This document shows, piece by piece, positions 13,312 through 28,743 of a DNA stretch of 28,743 bases. The DNA comes from a virus: the IMG/VR virus record IMGVR_UViG_3300012944_000171, positions 1-28,743 of that record; one strand, written 5' to 3'. Below the pieces are notes generated by a model that saw only the letters and a program-made list of their open reading frames with translations, ran no database searches and was not told the DNA's origin. A program made the position numbers and the translations under genes. Each line of letters starts with the position of its first letter. Position 1 is the stretch's first letter.

Positions 13312-13386
13312 AGTACCGTGGCCGAACGGTTCAGGCACACGACCGATAATCGTGCTAAGGTGGTTCGACTCCACCCGGTACTACCA
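13312..13386 (+). tRNA. tRNA-Ile (GAT), CCA encoded
   Basis: A complete cloverleaf: acceptor AGTACCG pairs exactly with CGGTACT; D arm GCC/GGC with GG in its loop; anticodon stem CACGA/TCGTG (13338-13342, 13350-13354) around loop CCGATAA; T arm GGTGG-TTCGACT-CCACC; discriminator A and encoded CCA (13384-13386). The anticodon GAT (13345-13347) reads ATC and ATT. The base before the anticodon is C, not the almost universal T33, which is unusual and may reduce function. Confidence 0.92.
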
Positions 13387-19266: not shown

Positions 19267-19433
19267 AAACATATACATTTGAATTTGAATATATGGTACC
19301 AGAGTTTGCTACTGTGACTGTGGAGACCAAAGAAGATGAGATGCCAAAGATTAAGGATTTGGCAATGGCAGAGTTTACCCGGATGTACCCAGAAGCCATT
19401 GATCCGGAGATTGTTAATACTACCAGTGACTGA
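19263..19433 (+). CDS. Small acidic protein before SSB (56 aa)
   Basis: The ATG at 19263 overlaps the previous stop (ATGA). An acidic, 56-residue protein with a strand-rich first half (YTFEFEYMVPEFATVTVE) and a helical second half (KIKDLAMAEFTRMYPE). Its last bases overlap the GTG start of the SSB gene. Function unknown. Confidence 0.7.
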   Translation: MKTYTFEFEYMVPEFATVTVETKEDEMPKIKDLAMAEFTRMYPEAIDPEIVNTTSD

Positions 19434-19908
19434 ATACGTTTATTTAAGTGGTAAGTGTAAGTGGTGTAAGACTACTGCACCTAATCAATTCGGAGATTGG
19501 AAGACTGACCTTTATCCAGATGATAAATCTTTAACAAAGATTATGGAACTTAAGGCAAGAGGTCTTAAGAATACTCTGAAGAAAGATGAAGATGGGCCGT
19601 TCATAGCCTTCAAACGTCCCATGACAAAGATGATGAAAGGCAGAGCAGTTAACTTTACAAATCCAGTAGTGCTTAATAAAGATGGAGTTCCTATTAATGA
19701 AGCAATAGGCAATGGTTCGGAAGTTACACTTAAACTATTGATTTATCCATTTATGTCTCCTGGTGGTGCCAAAGGTATTGGTGCTAGATGGGAGTCAGTG
19801 CGAGTAGATAACTTAGTTCCCTGGGAACTGAAAGACTTCGCAGAACCAGCCGAAAGAGAAGCTATCTTTGGACTTAAAGAAGCACCTAAAGGTGATTATA
19901 ACTTTTAA
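19426..19908 (+). CDS. gp2.5-like single-stranded DNA-binding protein
   Basis: The pattern VYLSGKCKWCKTTAPNQFGDWKTDLY, then ARGLKNTLKKDEDGPFIAFKRP, then IGNGSEVTLKLLIYPF and VRVDNLVPWE follows the OB-fold ssDNA-binding family of T7-like and cyanophages. It would coat unwound strands and bind polymerase and helicase. The C-terminus ends in a phenylalanine (KGDYNF), as in T7 gp2.5, whose terminal Phe contacts partners, though the acidic tail is short. The frame is open from 19336, but homology begins near the GTG at 19426, which overlaps the previous stop by eight bases. It lies directly after the polymerase, as expected for a replication protein. Confidence 0.8.
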   Translation: MTEYVYLSGKCKWCKTTAPNQFGDWKTDLYPDDKSLTKIMELKARGLKNTLKKDEDGPFIAFKRPMTKMMKGRAVNFTNPVVLNKDGVPINEAIGNGSEVTLKLLIYPFMSPGGAKGIGARWESVRVDNLVPWELKDFAEPAEREAIFGLKEAPKGDYNF

Positions 19909-20826: not shown

Positions 20827-21069
20827 ATGTCTATCTTTCGCACAACTCACCTACACAATAACGATAAGATAGAGAAGTTCCATCCCTCCAAGGAAGAGGC
20901 GGTGACCTTCTTGACTATCAAAGCTTTCGAAGACTTTCTGGGAAACATTCCCACTAAAGGAATGAACTTAGAAAAGAGAGCTGACACTGCAAGACAACTT
21001 CTTCCTGCTCTTCTAGATAAACTAGATAAAATTGAAGAAAGCATTCAACAATTTGATCTTCAGAAATAG
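20827..21069 (+). CDS. Helical protein before the RNA region (80 aa)
   Basis: A GGAG ahead of the ATG at 20827 selects it over the upstream 20764 start. The N-terminus is His/Asn-rich. Residues 20-80 are helical, with a Leu-rich amphipathic end (ARQLLPALLDKLDKIEESIQQ) likely to form a coiled coil. It is the last protein gene before the 1.6-kb non-coding stretch. Function unknown. Confidence 0.7.
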   Translation: MSIFRTTHLHNNDKIEKFHPSKEEAVTFLTIKAFEDFLGNIPTKGMNLEKRADTARQLLPALLDKLDKIEESIQQFDLQK

Positions 21070-21079
21070 TTTGTTACTC

Positions 21080-22680
21080 AGCCACTAGTCGCATATATCA
21101 CCGGGTGGTAATAATCCCTGGTAATACTGATCAGGGTACCGAGTGCAACTCAGCCTAGAAAAGTCCCCGTGTCCGATACTATACGTTCGATGCCACGTTC
21201 CGGATTGAAACGTTAGGAAACTTCCGCAGACGAAGATACGTATAAGTCGTAACTTGGGAACCTGGGTGAGTGGTGATGGAGTGGTGACCATCCTAGTGAG
21301 GAGAGACCCGGCACATACCGTAAAGTATGTCCTTAAAGGTGTGAAAGCAGACTGAGGCTTCTCAATCCATTTAGCTGCAGGATACAAAAAGCAGCATAGA
21401 AGGGCTACATCAGTACAAGTACTGGTTCGAGTCCAGTCCTACTCGGCTGACAGATACCGAGAGTGTGGCGCAACAACTGGCAGACGCAACTGATGATGCC
21501 ACCCGCAACGTCACCTGTGGAGGCTAAAAACGGAGACAGTAGGACACACACCCCTATGTCCGGTGGCAGACGATCAGCGTGATTGCATCCTTGATGGTCT
21601 CCAACGCCTAATCCGGGGCTTCTGGCCCAAGGTCAATCAAATATAGGGTAGTGTCATCCACGCCTCACGTGGAGTAGCTTTGAATACCAGTCTCATACGT
21701 AACAACTTGTGAGGATGTACTCATGAGCCTGGAACGAGGTATAGTATGAGACAAGTAAGATACACATCGTTCTTCGGACGGAGAGTAGGTTCCGAGATGG
21801 TTCAAATCCATCAAAGGTCGTTGGGCGGCCAGATGCTTTTCCTCAATGGCAGCACGAAAGAGCTTGGTAAAGGAACCGAGGCCAGTCCTAAGCGTCTTCT
21901 CTTGGAGTCCCCAGGAAATAAACTGACTCGTAAGTTAATCACATTGGCAGAAGTGAGACAGTCTTGTGTACCAGGCCACCGCTGAAAGAATGCGGACTGG
22001 AGTAGACAGCATCAGATTGGTGCGCATCAAGGCCACCTAGGTGCTTCCTCTATTGTTTGCAAGGTACCTCTCAAGGATGCATGCAGGGTGCAACCTGTGT
22101 ATTCTGACTACCAATCAGAATGTGGTGAGACGAACGACGTTGAAGAGGTGAAGAAGAGTGTGATCCGAAAGCAAGGGTTTCTTAGGTGTAGACTGTTAGG
22201 GTTCATTTACCCTTCTGGTTGTTGTTTCCCTCCTTTGAAGAGCAGAGCAACATTAATGATCACCGATGAACAATGCCCATTCCAAGCAGCAACGATCAGT
22301 TATTATCCCTGGTCCACGACACAGTATGCCGTGTGCTATAGTGTGCAAACTCACATTGACCGTCTTGTCCTAGATGTAGGAAAGAATGGTGACGAGCAGT
22401 AGAATGTGTAGCCAATGTAGCGGTAGGCGTAGTTAACTCCGGCTTTCTTACATGGCTGGTTATCCCTATTAGCGAACGAGAAGTATCAGGCAACTGAGTA
22501 CGCTGACTGATTCGGTCCGGAAAGGTATTCTACATAAGTCTCTTGTGAGATATTCTTACTTCTAGTTACCCAGCTCCGGCTATCTACCGCAGGCTGGACC
22601 ATCCTAGAGATTGGAGGTGTTGGATGAGGTATAAGTATATTACTCCACCTATCCGCCCCCCTTAAGTTCATCAATACGCC
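21080..22680 (+). ncRNA. Candidate giant structured RNA (about 1.6 kb)
   Basis: No credible gene exists here, yet exact short stems are everywhere: CCCTG/CAGGG (21116, 21132); GATGG/CCATC (21275, 21288); ACATAC/GTATGT (21313, 21325); GCTGC/GCAGC (21374, 21391); TCCAC/GTGGA (21657, 21669); GTCTCATAC/GTATGAGAC (21690, 21744); GGTTCC/GGAACC (21788, 21872); CCAG-CCGC/GCGG-CTGG (21971-22000); ATTCTGA/TCAGAAT (22101, 22115); CCAGC/GCTGG (22570, 22593). Two hairpins look like tRNA T arms (ACTGG-TTCGAGT-CCAGT at 21421 and GATGG-TTCAAAT-CCATC at 21796), but no cloverleaf surrounds either. The CCTACTC after the first (21438) is complementary to GAGTAGG at 21783. Size and phage context recall the GOLLD and ROOL ornate RNAs; identity is not established. 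Confidence 0.65.
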
Positions 22681-22697
22681 GAAGAGAGGAGGATTCC

Positions 22698-22967
22698 ATG
22701 TTCGGCATGTATCCATACACACAACCTCCGGTGAAATCTATGAAAGAACAAATAGAAGAAGCGGAGTTTCTCTTAGACTTTATGAAAAAGAAATTCGAAA
22801 AGAAAGATGATAAAGGACCAACTAAGTTGAAAGATAAGAAGTTCTCCCTATGGGAAACTGGTTTAGTATTGGCAGTAGTTAGTTTTATCTGTGCAGTTCC
22901 TATAGTAACATATCAATTACATTCCCTATTAATGTTGAAACAGGCGATGGATGCGGTGATGAAATGA
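22698..22967 (+). CDS. Single-span membrane protein with helical head (89 aa)
   Basis: AGGAGG five bases before the ATG at 22698. Residues 14-50 form a charged helix or coiled coil (EEAEFLLDFMKKKFEKK). Residues about 53-78 are one transmembrane helix (GLVLAVVSFICAVPIVTY). The basic head suggests an N-in orientation. It overlaps the next gene in an ATGA junction. It could be a membrane-associated factor of the phage; no lysis motif is recognised. Confidence 0.75.
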   Translation: MFGMYPYTQPPVKSMKEQIEEAEFLLDFMKKKFEKKDDKGPTKLKDKKFSLWETGLVLAVVSFICAVPIVTYQLHSLLMLKQAMDAVMK

Positions 22968-23173
22968 AAATGACTGTTGTTCATCGAAGATGGCGATACG
23001 TAGATAATCGTGGACTAAAATTAGTGGCAACAAGAGAATACAAACGAATAATGAAACTTTGGAATATGACTAATTTAATTTACTTTCACCATTATATCTG
23101 TGAAATTAACCGTTATGATGGTGCTCCTTATGATGTAATACATATTGAAATCGATACACACTCTAGTACCTGA
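22964..23173 (+). CDS. Basic protein rich in Arg, Tyr and His (69 aa)
   Basis: ATGA overlap with the membrane-protein gene. A basic 69-residue protein (HRRWRYVDNRGLK) with aromatic residues and a mixed fold. The last 29 bases overlap the nuclease gene that follows. Function unknown. Confidence 0.65.
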   Translation: MKMTVVHRRWRYVDNRGLKLVATREYKRIMKLWNMTNLIYFHHYICEINRYDGAPYDVIHIEIDTHSST

Positions 23174-24011
23174 CGTTTATGCACTCTTGCAAACAAAAGG
23201 ATGGTACAATGGCGATCTTACTGAATACTTTACGACGGTATGCAATCAAAGGCTTCGATCCCAATGGGACAACAACTCAGATATCAGTGGCAGCTTGCGA
23301 CTCTCGCGAATGGGAGATTGTTGTCCAAGAGCTCTCTGGTATTCGGTCCATAAACCAGGAGAAGCTGAACCATTGCCTCCGTGGGCTAACTTCAAATATA
23401 CCTACGGACATATAATCGAAGCATTAGCCTTAACCCTAGCTAAGGCGGCTGGACATAGAGTCGAGGGAGAACAGGATGAGCTAAATGTCTTGGGTATCAA
23501 AGGTCATCGCGACGCTATTATTGACGGCTGTGTGGTGGACGTTAAATCTGCTACAAGCTTCAAAGTGGCAGAAAGCAAACGGGGATCTTTGGAGAAGAAC
23601 GACAGTTTTGGTTACCTCGATCAGCTTGATGGTTATGTACTTGGATCTGCTAATGATCCTCTGGTTACTGTAAAAGATAAAGGATATCTCTGGTTCATCG
23701 ATAAAACTTTGGGGCACATGAATGTCTACGAACATACCGCGCGATTTGGACGAATACGGGATCGCATTAACGAATATAAGATCATCACTGAGTCACGCAC
23801 AGCGCCTACTTGTACTTGCAGAACGAGACCTTCAGGTGCGTCCGGAAACATCGAGCTTGATGTTAAGGCAAGCTATTCTGCGTATAAACACGTCTGCTTT
23901 CCAACTCTTAGAACTTTCCTCTACGCTGACGGACCTAAATATCTCACTCATGTTGTTCGGCGTCCTGAAGTCCCAGAAATCGACAGACAAGGAAGAATAG
24001 TCTATCACTAG
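23145..24011 (+). CDS. PD-(D/E)XK exonuclease, RecB/Cas4-like (288 aa)
   Basis: Motifs in order: LRLSRMGDCCPRALWY (about 51-66), typical of this nuclease group; YGHIIE (88-92); GHRDAIIDG (120-128) with the catalytic Asp; VDVKS (131-135) with the D-x-K signature. Two Cys in CTCR and a later Cys in the C-terminal part might hold a metal. Such proteins act as phage recombination or degradation exonucleases, and this one may replace T7 gp6. The only usual start in frame is a TTG at 23145; the upstream stop is at 23136, and no good ribosome site is seen. The stop overlaps the endonuclease I frame by eight bases. Confidence 0.85.
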   Translation: MKSIHTLVPDVYALLQTKGWYNGDLTEYFTTVCNQRLRSQWDNNSDISGSLRLSRMGDCCPRALWYSVHKPGEAEPLPPWANFKYTYGHIIEALALTLAKAAGHRVEGEQDELNVLGIKGHRDAIIDGCVVDVKSATSFKVAESKRGSLEKNDSFGYLDQLDGYVLGSANDPLVTVKDKGYLWFIDKTLGHMNVYEHTARFGRIRDRINEYKIITESRTAPTCTCRTRPSGASGNIELDVKASYSAYKHVCFPTLRTFLYADGPKYLTHVVRRPEVPEIDRQGRIVYH

Positions 24012-26743: not shown

Positions 26744-28743
26744 TTATTTTTGAGATTCTTTATCTATTGTATTTTTCATCTTTTCATACCAATCTTTATA
26801 AGCTTTAGGAATATCTGGAGTGTCCCAATCTTTAGAAGTTATCGGTTTATTTTCAGATCTGGGATGATAATCATAAGGCTTCTCAGATTCTATAGGTCCA
26901 CCTTCGAATTGATTCTTATACCAATCTGATAAAGCTTTCTCATATTCAGGATCTCCTTTATTAGGAAATACACCTTCGGCTGGATTATATGGTTCTGTTT
27001 TACCAGGAGCTAGTTCTTCACCAGATGCTCTGTTCTGTCTAGTCTTCCAATCATATCCTTTTAAGCTATTAAGTTTACCAGCTACAGCGTTTCTAGTAGT
27101 TCCCAATTCCTTAGCTATTTCAGAGAAAGACATTCCTTCTTCATGCATACGGATAAGTCTATTTACATTCTCAGAATGAGCCCATAAAGATAAATCTCTC
27201 TTTATAGCTCCGCTTGCAATACCTCCAGCTCTACCCATAATACCGCCTAATTCACCAGGACCTATAACATCTTCAGGTTTAAGCTCTTTAAGAAAGTTTA
27301 ATACTTTACTTCCTTCTAAGCCATGTTTAGCAGCTAAATCTTGTATGGACTTCTCTTGACTAGGTGAAAATGGAGTATAGTTTTTATCGGACATAGGTTT
27401 ATATTCAGGATATGGCGTTACTTGTCCTTCAACTCCGGTATCTGATTCTACATCGCTAAACTTTCTACGACTTTCTAAAGCACCTTGTAGTCGACCTCTA
27501 TAGTCTTCTCTAGTTGCATTTAATTCCTCTGGAGTCTGTTGAGGAGAAGATTGGAACCACCAGTTCTTTACTTGGCCTTTGCCATGAGGAACATCTAAAG
27601 GAGATGGAAATCCTTGAGCAGGAGAGAATCTCTCATTAAAAGTATTCTCAGGATTTGAACTTTCCCTTTGGTCATTCATTGCGTGATAAAGATTTCTATG
27701 CTCAGCCATAATAGTAGAGTTAGCTTTCATAGTGAAGGGTTCTACTGTACCAGGTTTATCTGGTTCTTTATTAACTGTGGGAGAATCTATAGATGGATTG
27801 TCTTGCCCTGTCTTCTCCCATGCTTTAAGTGTACCTTCTACTTTAGAATGAGTTAAGATAGCTAACTTCTTACCTTGGTTATTATTAATAGCATCTCTGA
27901 TACCTGCCTGGGATCTATCTTTGAAATCATTAAAACTCTCTGCACCACCGACAGGTTCATTTGGTGTCTTATCTACAGCATCTTTCATCTTCTGGGTATT
28001 CTTATCGTCGCAAGGCTGTCCTTCTAGACTGCCCATATCCCATGTGTTTAGTTTATCATCGAACTGTGGAACTATGCCTAGCTTAGCAGCAATGATATGA
28101 GCAGATTCTTTAGCTCTAGGAAGACTAGAGGATACAATAGCATCTACACCTTCTGATTTAAGTTGTCTAGCAGCAGTCTCTGCTTGCTTACGTCCTACGT
28201 CTGTTAACTTAGAATTTTTGGTTCTAATGACATTATCTTCATTATCTTCTGTCTCTCCATGACGTACGAAGAATAGTTTATGATCATCGCCAGAAGGATT
28301 TAATACATTACCAGGTTCAACTCTTTTAAAATAGTCTTGGAGTTTCTTCTGCCCATGCATTTCTAAATTAGTAGGACCTGGAGTAAATCCATATCTTCCT
28401 TCACCTAACTCATTCCAACGACCTCCTTGATATTCTCCAGTAGAGTATTTACTCTCTTCAGAGAATGTAGGATGATTGGGCTTTTTGAATGTATCTGGAT
28501 AATGTTGCCCTTCTCCAGGCACGAAGTCAGGATTCTCTTTATGAAAGCCTTGCATATCATAATCTTTACTATCCTCAGGACCATACTTTTGACTATAAGT
28601 CTTTTGCTCTTCAGAGTTTAATGGAGTATCAAACTTGTTGGCTTGATAAACATCTGTCTTAGGATCATAATTAGGACTTTTAGTTAAATCATTCTTAATA
28701 GGATTATCTAAATGATAGTCTACTGCATCTTCATATACTTTAC
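26744..28743 (-). CDS. Very large protein with histidine-phosphatase and GcrA-like domains, 3' part
   Basis: The frame stays open from the stop at 26744 to the right edge (over 660 codons), so the start is not in view. Residues counted from a Met at 28555: a histidine-phosphatase (phosphoglycerate-mutase) domain at about 93-250, with VRHGETEDN (RHG at 98-100), SSSLPRAKES, ESFNDF and ILTHS, so the catalytic His and RHG are intact. Then a helical region (about 400-460) and a GcrA-like helix-turn-helix, MSFSEIAKELGTTRNAVAGKL (about 475-495). The rest is a Pro/Gly/Lys/Asp-rich linker. Long multi-domain proteins of this kind are often injected virion proteins; that role is inferred. GcrA-like domains are typical of alphaproteobacteria. 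Confidence 0.85.
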   Translation of the reverse strand, partial: KVYEDAVDYHLDNPIKNDLTKSPNYDPKTDVYQANKFDTPLNSEEQKTYSQKYGPEDSKDYDMQGFHKENPDFVPGEGQHYPDTFKKPNHPTFSEESKYSTGEYQGGRWNELGEGRYGFTPGPTNLEMHGQKKLQDYFKRVEPGNVLNPSGDDHKLFFVRHGETEDNEDNVIRTKNSKLTDVGRKQAETAARQLKSEGVDAIVSSSLPRAKESAHIIAAKLGIVPQFDDKLNTWDMGSLEGQPCDDKNTQKMKDAVDKTPNEPVGGAESFNDFKDRSQAGIRDAINNNQGKKLAILTHSKVEGTLKAWEKTGQDNPSIDSPTVNKEPDKPGTVEPFTMKANSTIMAEHRNLYHAMNDQRESSNPENTFNERFSPAQGFPSPLDVPHGKGQVKNWWFQSSPQQTPEELNATREDYRGRLQGALESRRKFSDVESDTGVEGQVTPYPEYKPMSDKNYTPFSPSQEKSIQDLAAKHGLEGSKVLNFLKELKPEDVIGPGELGGIMGRAGGIASGAIKRDLSLWAHSENVNRLIRMHEEGMSFSEIAKELGTTRNAVAGKLNSLKGYDWKTRQNRASGEELAPGKTEPYNPAEGVFPNKGDPEYEKALSDWYKNQFEGGPIESEKPYDYHPRSENKPITSKDWDTPDIPKAYKDWYEKMKNTIDKESQK

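Follow-up and report, generated by a model that had tools for sequence, protein, structure and literature searches.

A clade-wide phage cassette linking a putative giant structured RNA with a circularly permuted tRNA-like domain to a Pro-Pro-stop mini-ORF and a small predicted membrane protein

The window, the whole 28,743-nucleotide stretch of DNA that was analyzed (IMG/VR record IMGVR_UViG_3300012944_000171), is the 28.7-kb record of a virus that encodes a T7-like DNA polymerase, a primase-helicase, a Gp2.5-like SSB, and a Cas4-like exonuclease. Using gene prediction with codon scoring, the longest intergenic gap in the window was placed at positions 21070 to 22739 (1,670 bases), or at 21070 to 22697 (1,628 bases) if the next gene starts at 22698; the second-longest gap in the same prediction was 656 bases. 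An earlier reading of this DNA from its letters alone (the sequence-only reading) had described a gene-free stretch of approximately 1.6 kb here. The gap is real and by far the longest in the window, but it is not wholly noncoding, as it includes a conserved 13-codon ORF at 22624 to 22665; chance ORFs inside the gap gave no Pfam match. Elsewhere, the window carries an ordinary tRNA-Ile (GAT) gene (13312 to 13386) and, on the strand opposite to the replication genes (26744 to 28555, minus), a gene for a 603-amino-acid protein that has an RHGE segment resembling histidine phosphatases and, at its C terminus, a segment resembling an HTH.

The many stems that had been noticed in the gap are, by themselves, not beyond chance: single-sequence folding gave MFE z scores of -1.65 for the first half and +0.48 for the second, so that structure could be established only through comparison across loci, where it was seen. 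Searches of the window's gap against Rfam at gathering and permissive thresholds gave no credible match, a DNA similarity search of the window against phage isolates and plasmids found none, and scans for intrinsic terminators and sigma-70 promoters returned nothing usable. On the window alone, the claim of a giant RNA would stay undecided.

To obtain relatives, IMG/VR was searched with the DNA polymerase and the exonuclease, yielding 75 distinct SSB-to-exonuclease regions from uncultured phages. A noncoding gap is present in all 75, with lengths of about 1.0 to 3.2 kb (10th to 90th percentile, 1.2 to 2.2 kb; median, 1,670 bases). The SSB-exonuclease interval is short in relatives with polymerase identity below about 45%, and the gap is absent from 43 more distant (outgroup) loci, in whose intervals the RNA, the mini-ORF, and the small membrane ORF are all missing together. 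A search of genome contigs for relatives returned distant ones only. As the named cultured hosts of the nearest isolates by exonuclease, at only 41% identity, are Alphaproteobacteria, the host of the clade is probably, but not certainly, alphaproteobacterial. Exonuclease relatives (about 40%) were also seen on two contigs binned as Dependentiae and Altiarchaeales MAGs (L160 and L161), which are probably misbinned phage contigs. Several relatives carry a tRNA-Leu (TAA) gene several kilobases upstream of the polymerase. The features of the window are collected in Table 1. The identity of its RNA region to those of L002 and L003 is a mosaic of invariant and variable blocks, and of the 25 indels between the window and L081/L002, a relative with 75% identity, 19 have lengths not divisible by 3.

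TABLE 1 Features of the SSB-to-exonuclease region of the window
Feature	Position	Strand	Basis
Upstream flank: Gp2.5-like SSB	19336-19908	+	phrog_112, E=4.5e-6
Invariant 5' block (TTTGTTACT..GCCACTAGTCGCATATATCAC), probable 5' boundary or promoter	21069-21105	+	Nearly identical in window, L002, and L003
Putative giant structured RNA element (5' end approximate)	21070-22623	+	Longest noncoding gap; noncoding at same place in 75 loci; identity 74-75% to L002/L003
Circularly permuted tRNA-like domain	21408-21495	+	Model R1 match 21421-21487; T, acceptor, and D helices covary in 36 matches
Anticodon-position closing stem, 5' strand CATCAGT	21408-21414	+	Pairs with ACTGATG at 21489-21495, 7 bp
T-arm ACTGG-TTCGAGT-CCAGT	21421-21437	+	T-arm motif scans and model R1
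Acceptor-position hairpin CTCGG/CCGAG, loop-capped, no CCA	21442-21461	+	Compensatory CTCGA/TCGAG in L002 and L003
D-arm TGGCG..GG..CGC	21466-21487	+	D-arm motif test, model R1, covariation
Hairpin GUCACC/GGAGAC with invariant loop GGAGGCUAAAA (21519-21529)	21510-21537	+	18 loci on plus strand, 0 on minus; stem covaries
Second T-arm GATGG-TTCAAAT-CCATC	21796-21812	+	GGACG/CGTCT instead in L003; weak model match, E=0.1
Shine-Dalgarno (SD) GGAGG of mini-ORF	22613-22617	+	5' of start
Mini-ORF MRYKYITPPIRPP, ending Pro-Pro-UAA, 13 codons	22624-22665	+	73/73 complete loci, all 51 clusters; 7 held-out contigs; 0/43 outgroups
Hairpin 3' of mini-ORF; 17-nt loop (22684-22700) has SD and ATG of next gene	22674-22710	+	Folding
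89-aa protein, one predicted C-terminal membrane helix	22698-22967	+	Same type 3' of mini-ORF in nearly all 73 loci
Downstream flank: Cas4-domain exonuclease	23145-24011	+	phrog_1990, E=8.9e-18

From the comparison of loci, the RNA, of roughly 1.1 to 2.2 kb, is predicted to fold around a circularly permuted tRNA-like domain, in which a T-arm, an acceptor hairpin, and a tRNA-Leu-like D-arm follow one another and are closed by a stem at the anticodon position. The motif GGTTCRANYCC occurs 104 times on the plus strand of the gaps, never on the minus strand, and eight times in 706 kb elsewhere, and the three outer T-arm pairs, which were not used in finding the motif, are all complementary in 77 of the 104 (about 5% expected). 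A complete D-arm lies 3' of 19 of 120 T-arms, compared with 1.0 expected after shuffling, and the segment from T-arm to D-arm closes as a stem in 13 of these 19, compared with 15%. As a loose descriptor of the whole permuted cloverleaf found hardly more matches than in shuffled flanks (49 versus about 41), the D-arm motif test and a covariance model were used instead. This model, R1, was built from six other loci with the window left out and finds the window at 21421 to 21487 with an E value of 1.8e-8 (927 kb searched); it matches dozens of loci, nearly all strong matches lying within gaps and on the plus strand. In an alignment of 36 matches, which was fitted to R1 itself, 98.2% of cells pair, falling to 39 to 54% in slid controls, and double changes number 112, compared with 30 after shuffling.

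The details of the domain vary among loci. The acceptor is capped by a tetraloop in L128 (CTACC-GAAA-GGTAG) and L099, and its hairpin is missing in L017, L103, L090, and L131. The anticodon-position stem, of 7 bp in the window, has 10, 10, 8, and 8 bp of differing sequence in L090, L012, L101, and L103, respectively; a closing stem of at least 6 bp is found in 16 of 25 domains, compared with 28% after shuffling, and at its anticodon end the domain leads into the remainder of the RNA. In 21 of the 75 loci no T-arm has all five pairs, and the full domain is not recognized everywhere. Extra hairpins are found inside the D-loop, just 5' of the conserved GG, at L003:14250-14343 and L025:15201-15283. 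Because the predicted acceptor end is loop-closed or absent, the domain cannot be charged as encoded, and it keeps the sequence elements of the elbow (T-loop and D-loop GG); together these make binding by elbow-recognizing factors or the ribosome more likely than a decoding role.

Further hairpins are conserved in the RNA. Besides that with the loop GGAGGCUAAAA, one has an invariant loop, G-UCUCAUUAG-C, on a variable, covarying stem, with no minus-strand matches. Coding by GGAGGCUAAAA (AUG-GAG-GCU-AAA in some loci) was considered and rejected, as the start is not kept and the stem covaries. For a seven-member cluster of loci, alignment folding outperformed column-shuffled controls over most of the RNA's length (mean z = -4.3); the mean z of -1.5 for the window's own set comes from three members, too few to decide. 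The invariant loops GGAGGCUAAAA and UCUCAUUAGC share the complementary 5-mers GCUAA/UUAGC, and GUCUCAUUAGC loops occur, for example, at L122:847 and L122:996. A long-range kissing contact between the GGAGGCUAAAA and UCUCAUUAGC loops is possible from this complementarity, and covariation is uninformative on it since both are invariant.

At the 3' end of the RNA, an SD-led mini-ORF ending in Pro-Pro-stop was found in 73 of the 75 regions, the two misses being contigs cut short. Its length ranges from 9 to 33 codons (mostly 12 to 14 or 20 to 24), every listed mini-ORF has an SD plus an ATG, GTG, or TTG start, and the SD lies 5 to 9 nt from the start in 69 of 74. The stop is UAA in 72 of 74, with Arg or Gln preceding Pro-Pro in 57 of 74, whereas a Pro-Pro-stop end was seen only once in 345 mini-ORFs of the minus strand and three times in 1,075 others of the plus strand. 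In a held-out test, the mini-ORF was present in all seven new contigs, one of which has the same peptide as L087, and in none of eight new outgroups. Synonymous changes alone or mainly separate some related mini-ORFs (7 to 0 for L097 versus L121), but not those of other loci. The third base of the first Pro codon is free, all four being used; of the 74 mini-ORF ends (for example, 22660-22665 in the window), 63 have CCU as their second Pro codon, compared with 44% in pol genes. This excess over pol codon usage indicates some constraint beyond the peptide, and the bias suggests that it may act on the tRNA-Pro isoacceptor or on the RNA sequence CCUUAA. A k-mer search had flagged CCNCCTTAA near the 3' end, and its interpretation as an anti-Shine-Dalgarno mimic was dropped, as the free third base and the in-frame starts show it to be the end of the mini-ORF.

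At the level of sequence, the mini-ORF has the layout of a stalling leader, namely a short ORF with an SD and an arrest-prone end, followed by a hairpin and a gene. The peptides of L119, L097, L121, L129, L135, L096, and L114 end in KPRPP, which recalls the PRPP core of ribosome-targeting, proline-rich antimicrobial peptides. In Escherichia coli, a C-terminal Pro-Pro at the stop codon impairs release and holds ribosomes (YbeL-PP; PMC3834316, PMC3985003). We consider it somewhat probable that the mini-ORF is a programmed-pause leader.

A strong, GC-rich hairpin lies within about 4 to 20 nt of the mini-ORF stop in most loci, and across 73 loci the 60 nt 3' of the stop have an MFE of -18.6 kcal/mol, compared with -11.5 kcal/mol after shuffling. 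Among the loci read, a hairpin that clearly encloses the SD and ATG of the next gene was seen only in the window and L081; in most others it sits between the mini-ORF and the SD, which makes for a poorer fit to classical translational attenuation. The product of the small ORF that follows matches no Pfam or PHROG family; it begins variably, often with many prolines, is rich in Lys and Glu in its central part, and in nearly all loci ends in a hydrophobic helix. The designation membrane protein is a prediction, as 24 of the 73 small proteins pass a strict helix cutoff and the remainder were judged by eye from an SPxxGP-type hydrophobic end. Pro-Pro occurs within the first 25 residues of 38 of the 73 (for example, L017:11240-11563 and L105:4347-4670), so early elongation may be slow too.

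These loci share a clade-wide phage cassette consisting, in order, of a giant structured RNA, a Pro-Pro-stop mini-ORF, a hairpin rich in GC, and a small ORF that in almost all cases encodes a predicted membrane protein. Its existence and anatomy we regard as close to certain; that the noncoding part is a single RNA, with the ends given in Table 1, is assumed. Strand-specific motifs, covarying helices, and clade-wide synteny bear out the proposal that this phage replication region carries a giant structured RNA; relatives were found in viral metagenomes, as had been suggested, with helices that covary among them. A conserved protein frame, which would have spoken against an RNA, is confined to the last 14 codons and absent from the 1.5 kb upstream. 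The sequence-only reading had included neither the permuted tRNA-like domain, nor the mini-ORF with its Pro-Pro-stop end, nor the linked gene for a membrane protein.

The explanation that we favor for the whole, with the function that we infer and in which we place about even confidence, is a translation-engaging giant-RNA cassette whose mini-ORF serves as a programmed termination-pause leader. A transcript of the RNA and the gene would be produced together, and a ribosome would initiate at the strong SD of the mini-ORF and pause at Pro-Pro-UAA, since C-terminal Pro-Pro slows release. The paused ribosome would end at, or reach into, the hairpin 4 to 20 nt downstream and so gate expression of the membrane protein. 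The giant RNA would be the working partner of that protein, a scaffold whose tRNA-like elbow would engage the translation apparatus or factors that bind tRNA, and the co-encoded protein might hold it at the membrane, as OapA does OLE RNA. This translation-directed, membrane-tethered role of the RNA is a possibility to which we give less than even odds. A bifunctional RNA, in which the mini-ORF would park a ribosome at the 3' end, the tRNA-like domain would engage the same or a neighboring ribosome, and the membrane protein would tether the complex, is a speculative extension that we think unlikely; if it were true, the phage would make a membrane-bound RNA-ribosome particle without known counterpart.

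It is possible, if doubtful, that the element acts purely in cis, the 1.6 kb being a long structured 5' leader of a membrane-protein/exonuclease operon, with a tRNA-like domain that senses a tRNA-binding factor, a mini-ORF that encodes a stalling leader peptide, and no free trans-acting RNA. The strict order of RNA, mini-ORF, hairpin, and gene in 73 loci, the joint absence of all parts from the outgroups, and the SD and ATG within the hairpin loop of the window agree with such a leader; however, 1.1 to 2.2 kb is far above the length of known leaders, the majority of the conserved hairpins are located over 500 nt upstream of the gene, and indels of tens of bases are tolerated. A GOLLD/ROOL-like RNA-only particle, in which the tRNA-like modules would be structural blocks and the mini-ORF would belong to the next gene only, seems unlikely. 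The RNA is large, phage-borne, ornate, and covarying, and GOLLD and ROOL form nanocages, with GOLLD binding ribosomes in pull-downs (PMC12286853), but neither Rfam model matches even at permissive thresholds, and the RNA and the mini-ORF always go together (73 of 73 loci versus none of 43 outgroups).

The several T-arm domains per RNA in L012, L024, and L101, and the proposal that YrlA is a competitive inhibitor of an anticodon nuclease (PMC7790460), would suit a tRNA decoy, with the permuted domains as competitive inhibitors of a host tRNA-cutting defense or of tRNA-binding enzymes. Such a decoy is improbable: the domain has neither the anticodon loop, the usual target, nor a CCA end, and the giant scaffold and mini-ORF would be unneeded. 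We give very little credence to a phage tmRNA-like ribosome-rescue RNA that combines a tRNA-like domain and an internal frame on one molecule. Its permuted domain would be as in two-piece tmRNA precursors, which carry one (PMC3985003), and the beta_tmRNA model touches a module in L141, but the acceptor is tetraloop-capped or absent, the D-arm is tRNA-Leu-like, and the ORF has its own SD and start and a Pro-Pro end that brings stalling about instead of relieving it. T-arm motifs that resemble tRNA and broken ORFs could suggest decayed tRNA genes, chance, or a gene read in another code, all so improbable as to be negligible; this reading is refuted by covariation, with compensatory changes throughout, and ARAGORN finds no tRNA in the SSB-exonuclease intervals, the order is T-acceptor-D and not acceptor-D-anticodon-T, and indels shift the frame.

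Among known RNAs, GOLLD is likewise a very large, elaborate, covarying phage-encoded RNA, in which tRNAs are sometimes found in the linker and with which ribosomes copurify in pull-downs (PMC12286853); the RNA described here differs in its permuted, capped tRNA-like part, its obligatory mini-ORF, and its linked membrane protein and is about twice as long. ROOL is also a large phage RNA but differs in length, motifs, and gene context. The Rfam models of GOLLD, ROOL, and OLE gave no match, permissive thresholds included, the window's stretch having been searched to E<=5 for the first two; without a match to GOLLD or ROOL, the option of a new class in the sequence-only reading was the right branch. 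OLE RNA, which is held at the membrane by OapA (PMC12286853), is comparable as a large ornate RNA whose partner is a membrane protein, here one encoded next door, but OLE is bacterial rather than phage borne, and the small protein here, which matches no family, has a single helix predicted at its C terminus.

Judged by its predicted fold, the nearest relative of the tRNA-like module is the tRNA mimic in the bacterial Y RNA YrlA, which likewise has a permuted T-arm, closed acceptor, and D-arm, with the RNA ends at the anticodon side. The resemblance is limited to this module, YrlA being an RNA of 90 to 150 nt with an Rsr-binding basal stem (PMC8394870). The Rfam YrlA model scored 39.6 bits in L141 (E=3.4e-5) and 29.4 bits in L024 (E=0.028), both below the gathering threshold (69 bits), and did not match the window. 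The module at L141:2768-2895, a canonical-looking permuted tRNA with a 7-bp acceptor and a 4-bp D-stem near the 5' end of the gap, may be a separate small RNA, a phage Y RNA upstream of the giant RNA. Two-piece tmRNA is similar in that one RNA has both a short reading frame and a tRNA-like domain in permuted order; here, however, no CCA end is possible as encoded, the frame has its own start codon, and the window has no tmRNA model match. An open acceptor with CCA or a processing site was not found, the acceptors being capped or missing, nor was a tag frame without a start codon, as the listed mini-ORFs have an SD and a start. Termination-stalling ORFs such as YbeL-PP are alike in that C-terminal prolines before the stop slow release, and TnaC is a further ORF of this kind with a C-terminal proline before its stop; what differs here is that the C-terminal Pro-Pro is universal and located at the 3' end of a giant structured RNA.

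The element is not GOLLD, ROOL, OLE, or tmRNA, as each fails at least one defining feature that was tested, and no description of such an element was found in the openly accessible literature that was searched. Although large ornate phage RNAs form a recognized descriptive category, the element is new in kind, as a tRNA-like domain in permuted order, an obligatory mini-ORF ending in Pro-Pro-stop, and a linked membrane protein are not known to be combined in any class. As an RNA class, it joins the largest structured RNAs of phages; it occurs throughout a broad uncultured clade and is absent from Rfam and the isolates searched, and it may show how a tRNA-like module can undergo circular permutation and become part of a large scaffold. 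Strong functional clues set it apart from GOLLD and ROOL, RNAs without an assigned role: its tRNA elbow, universal termination-pause peptide, and linked membrane protein make a role in translation directly testable.
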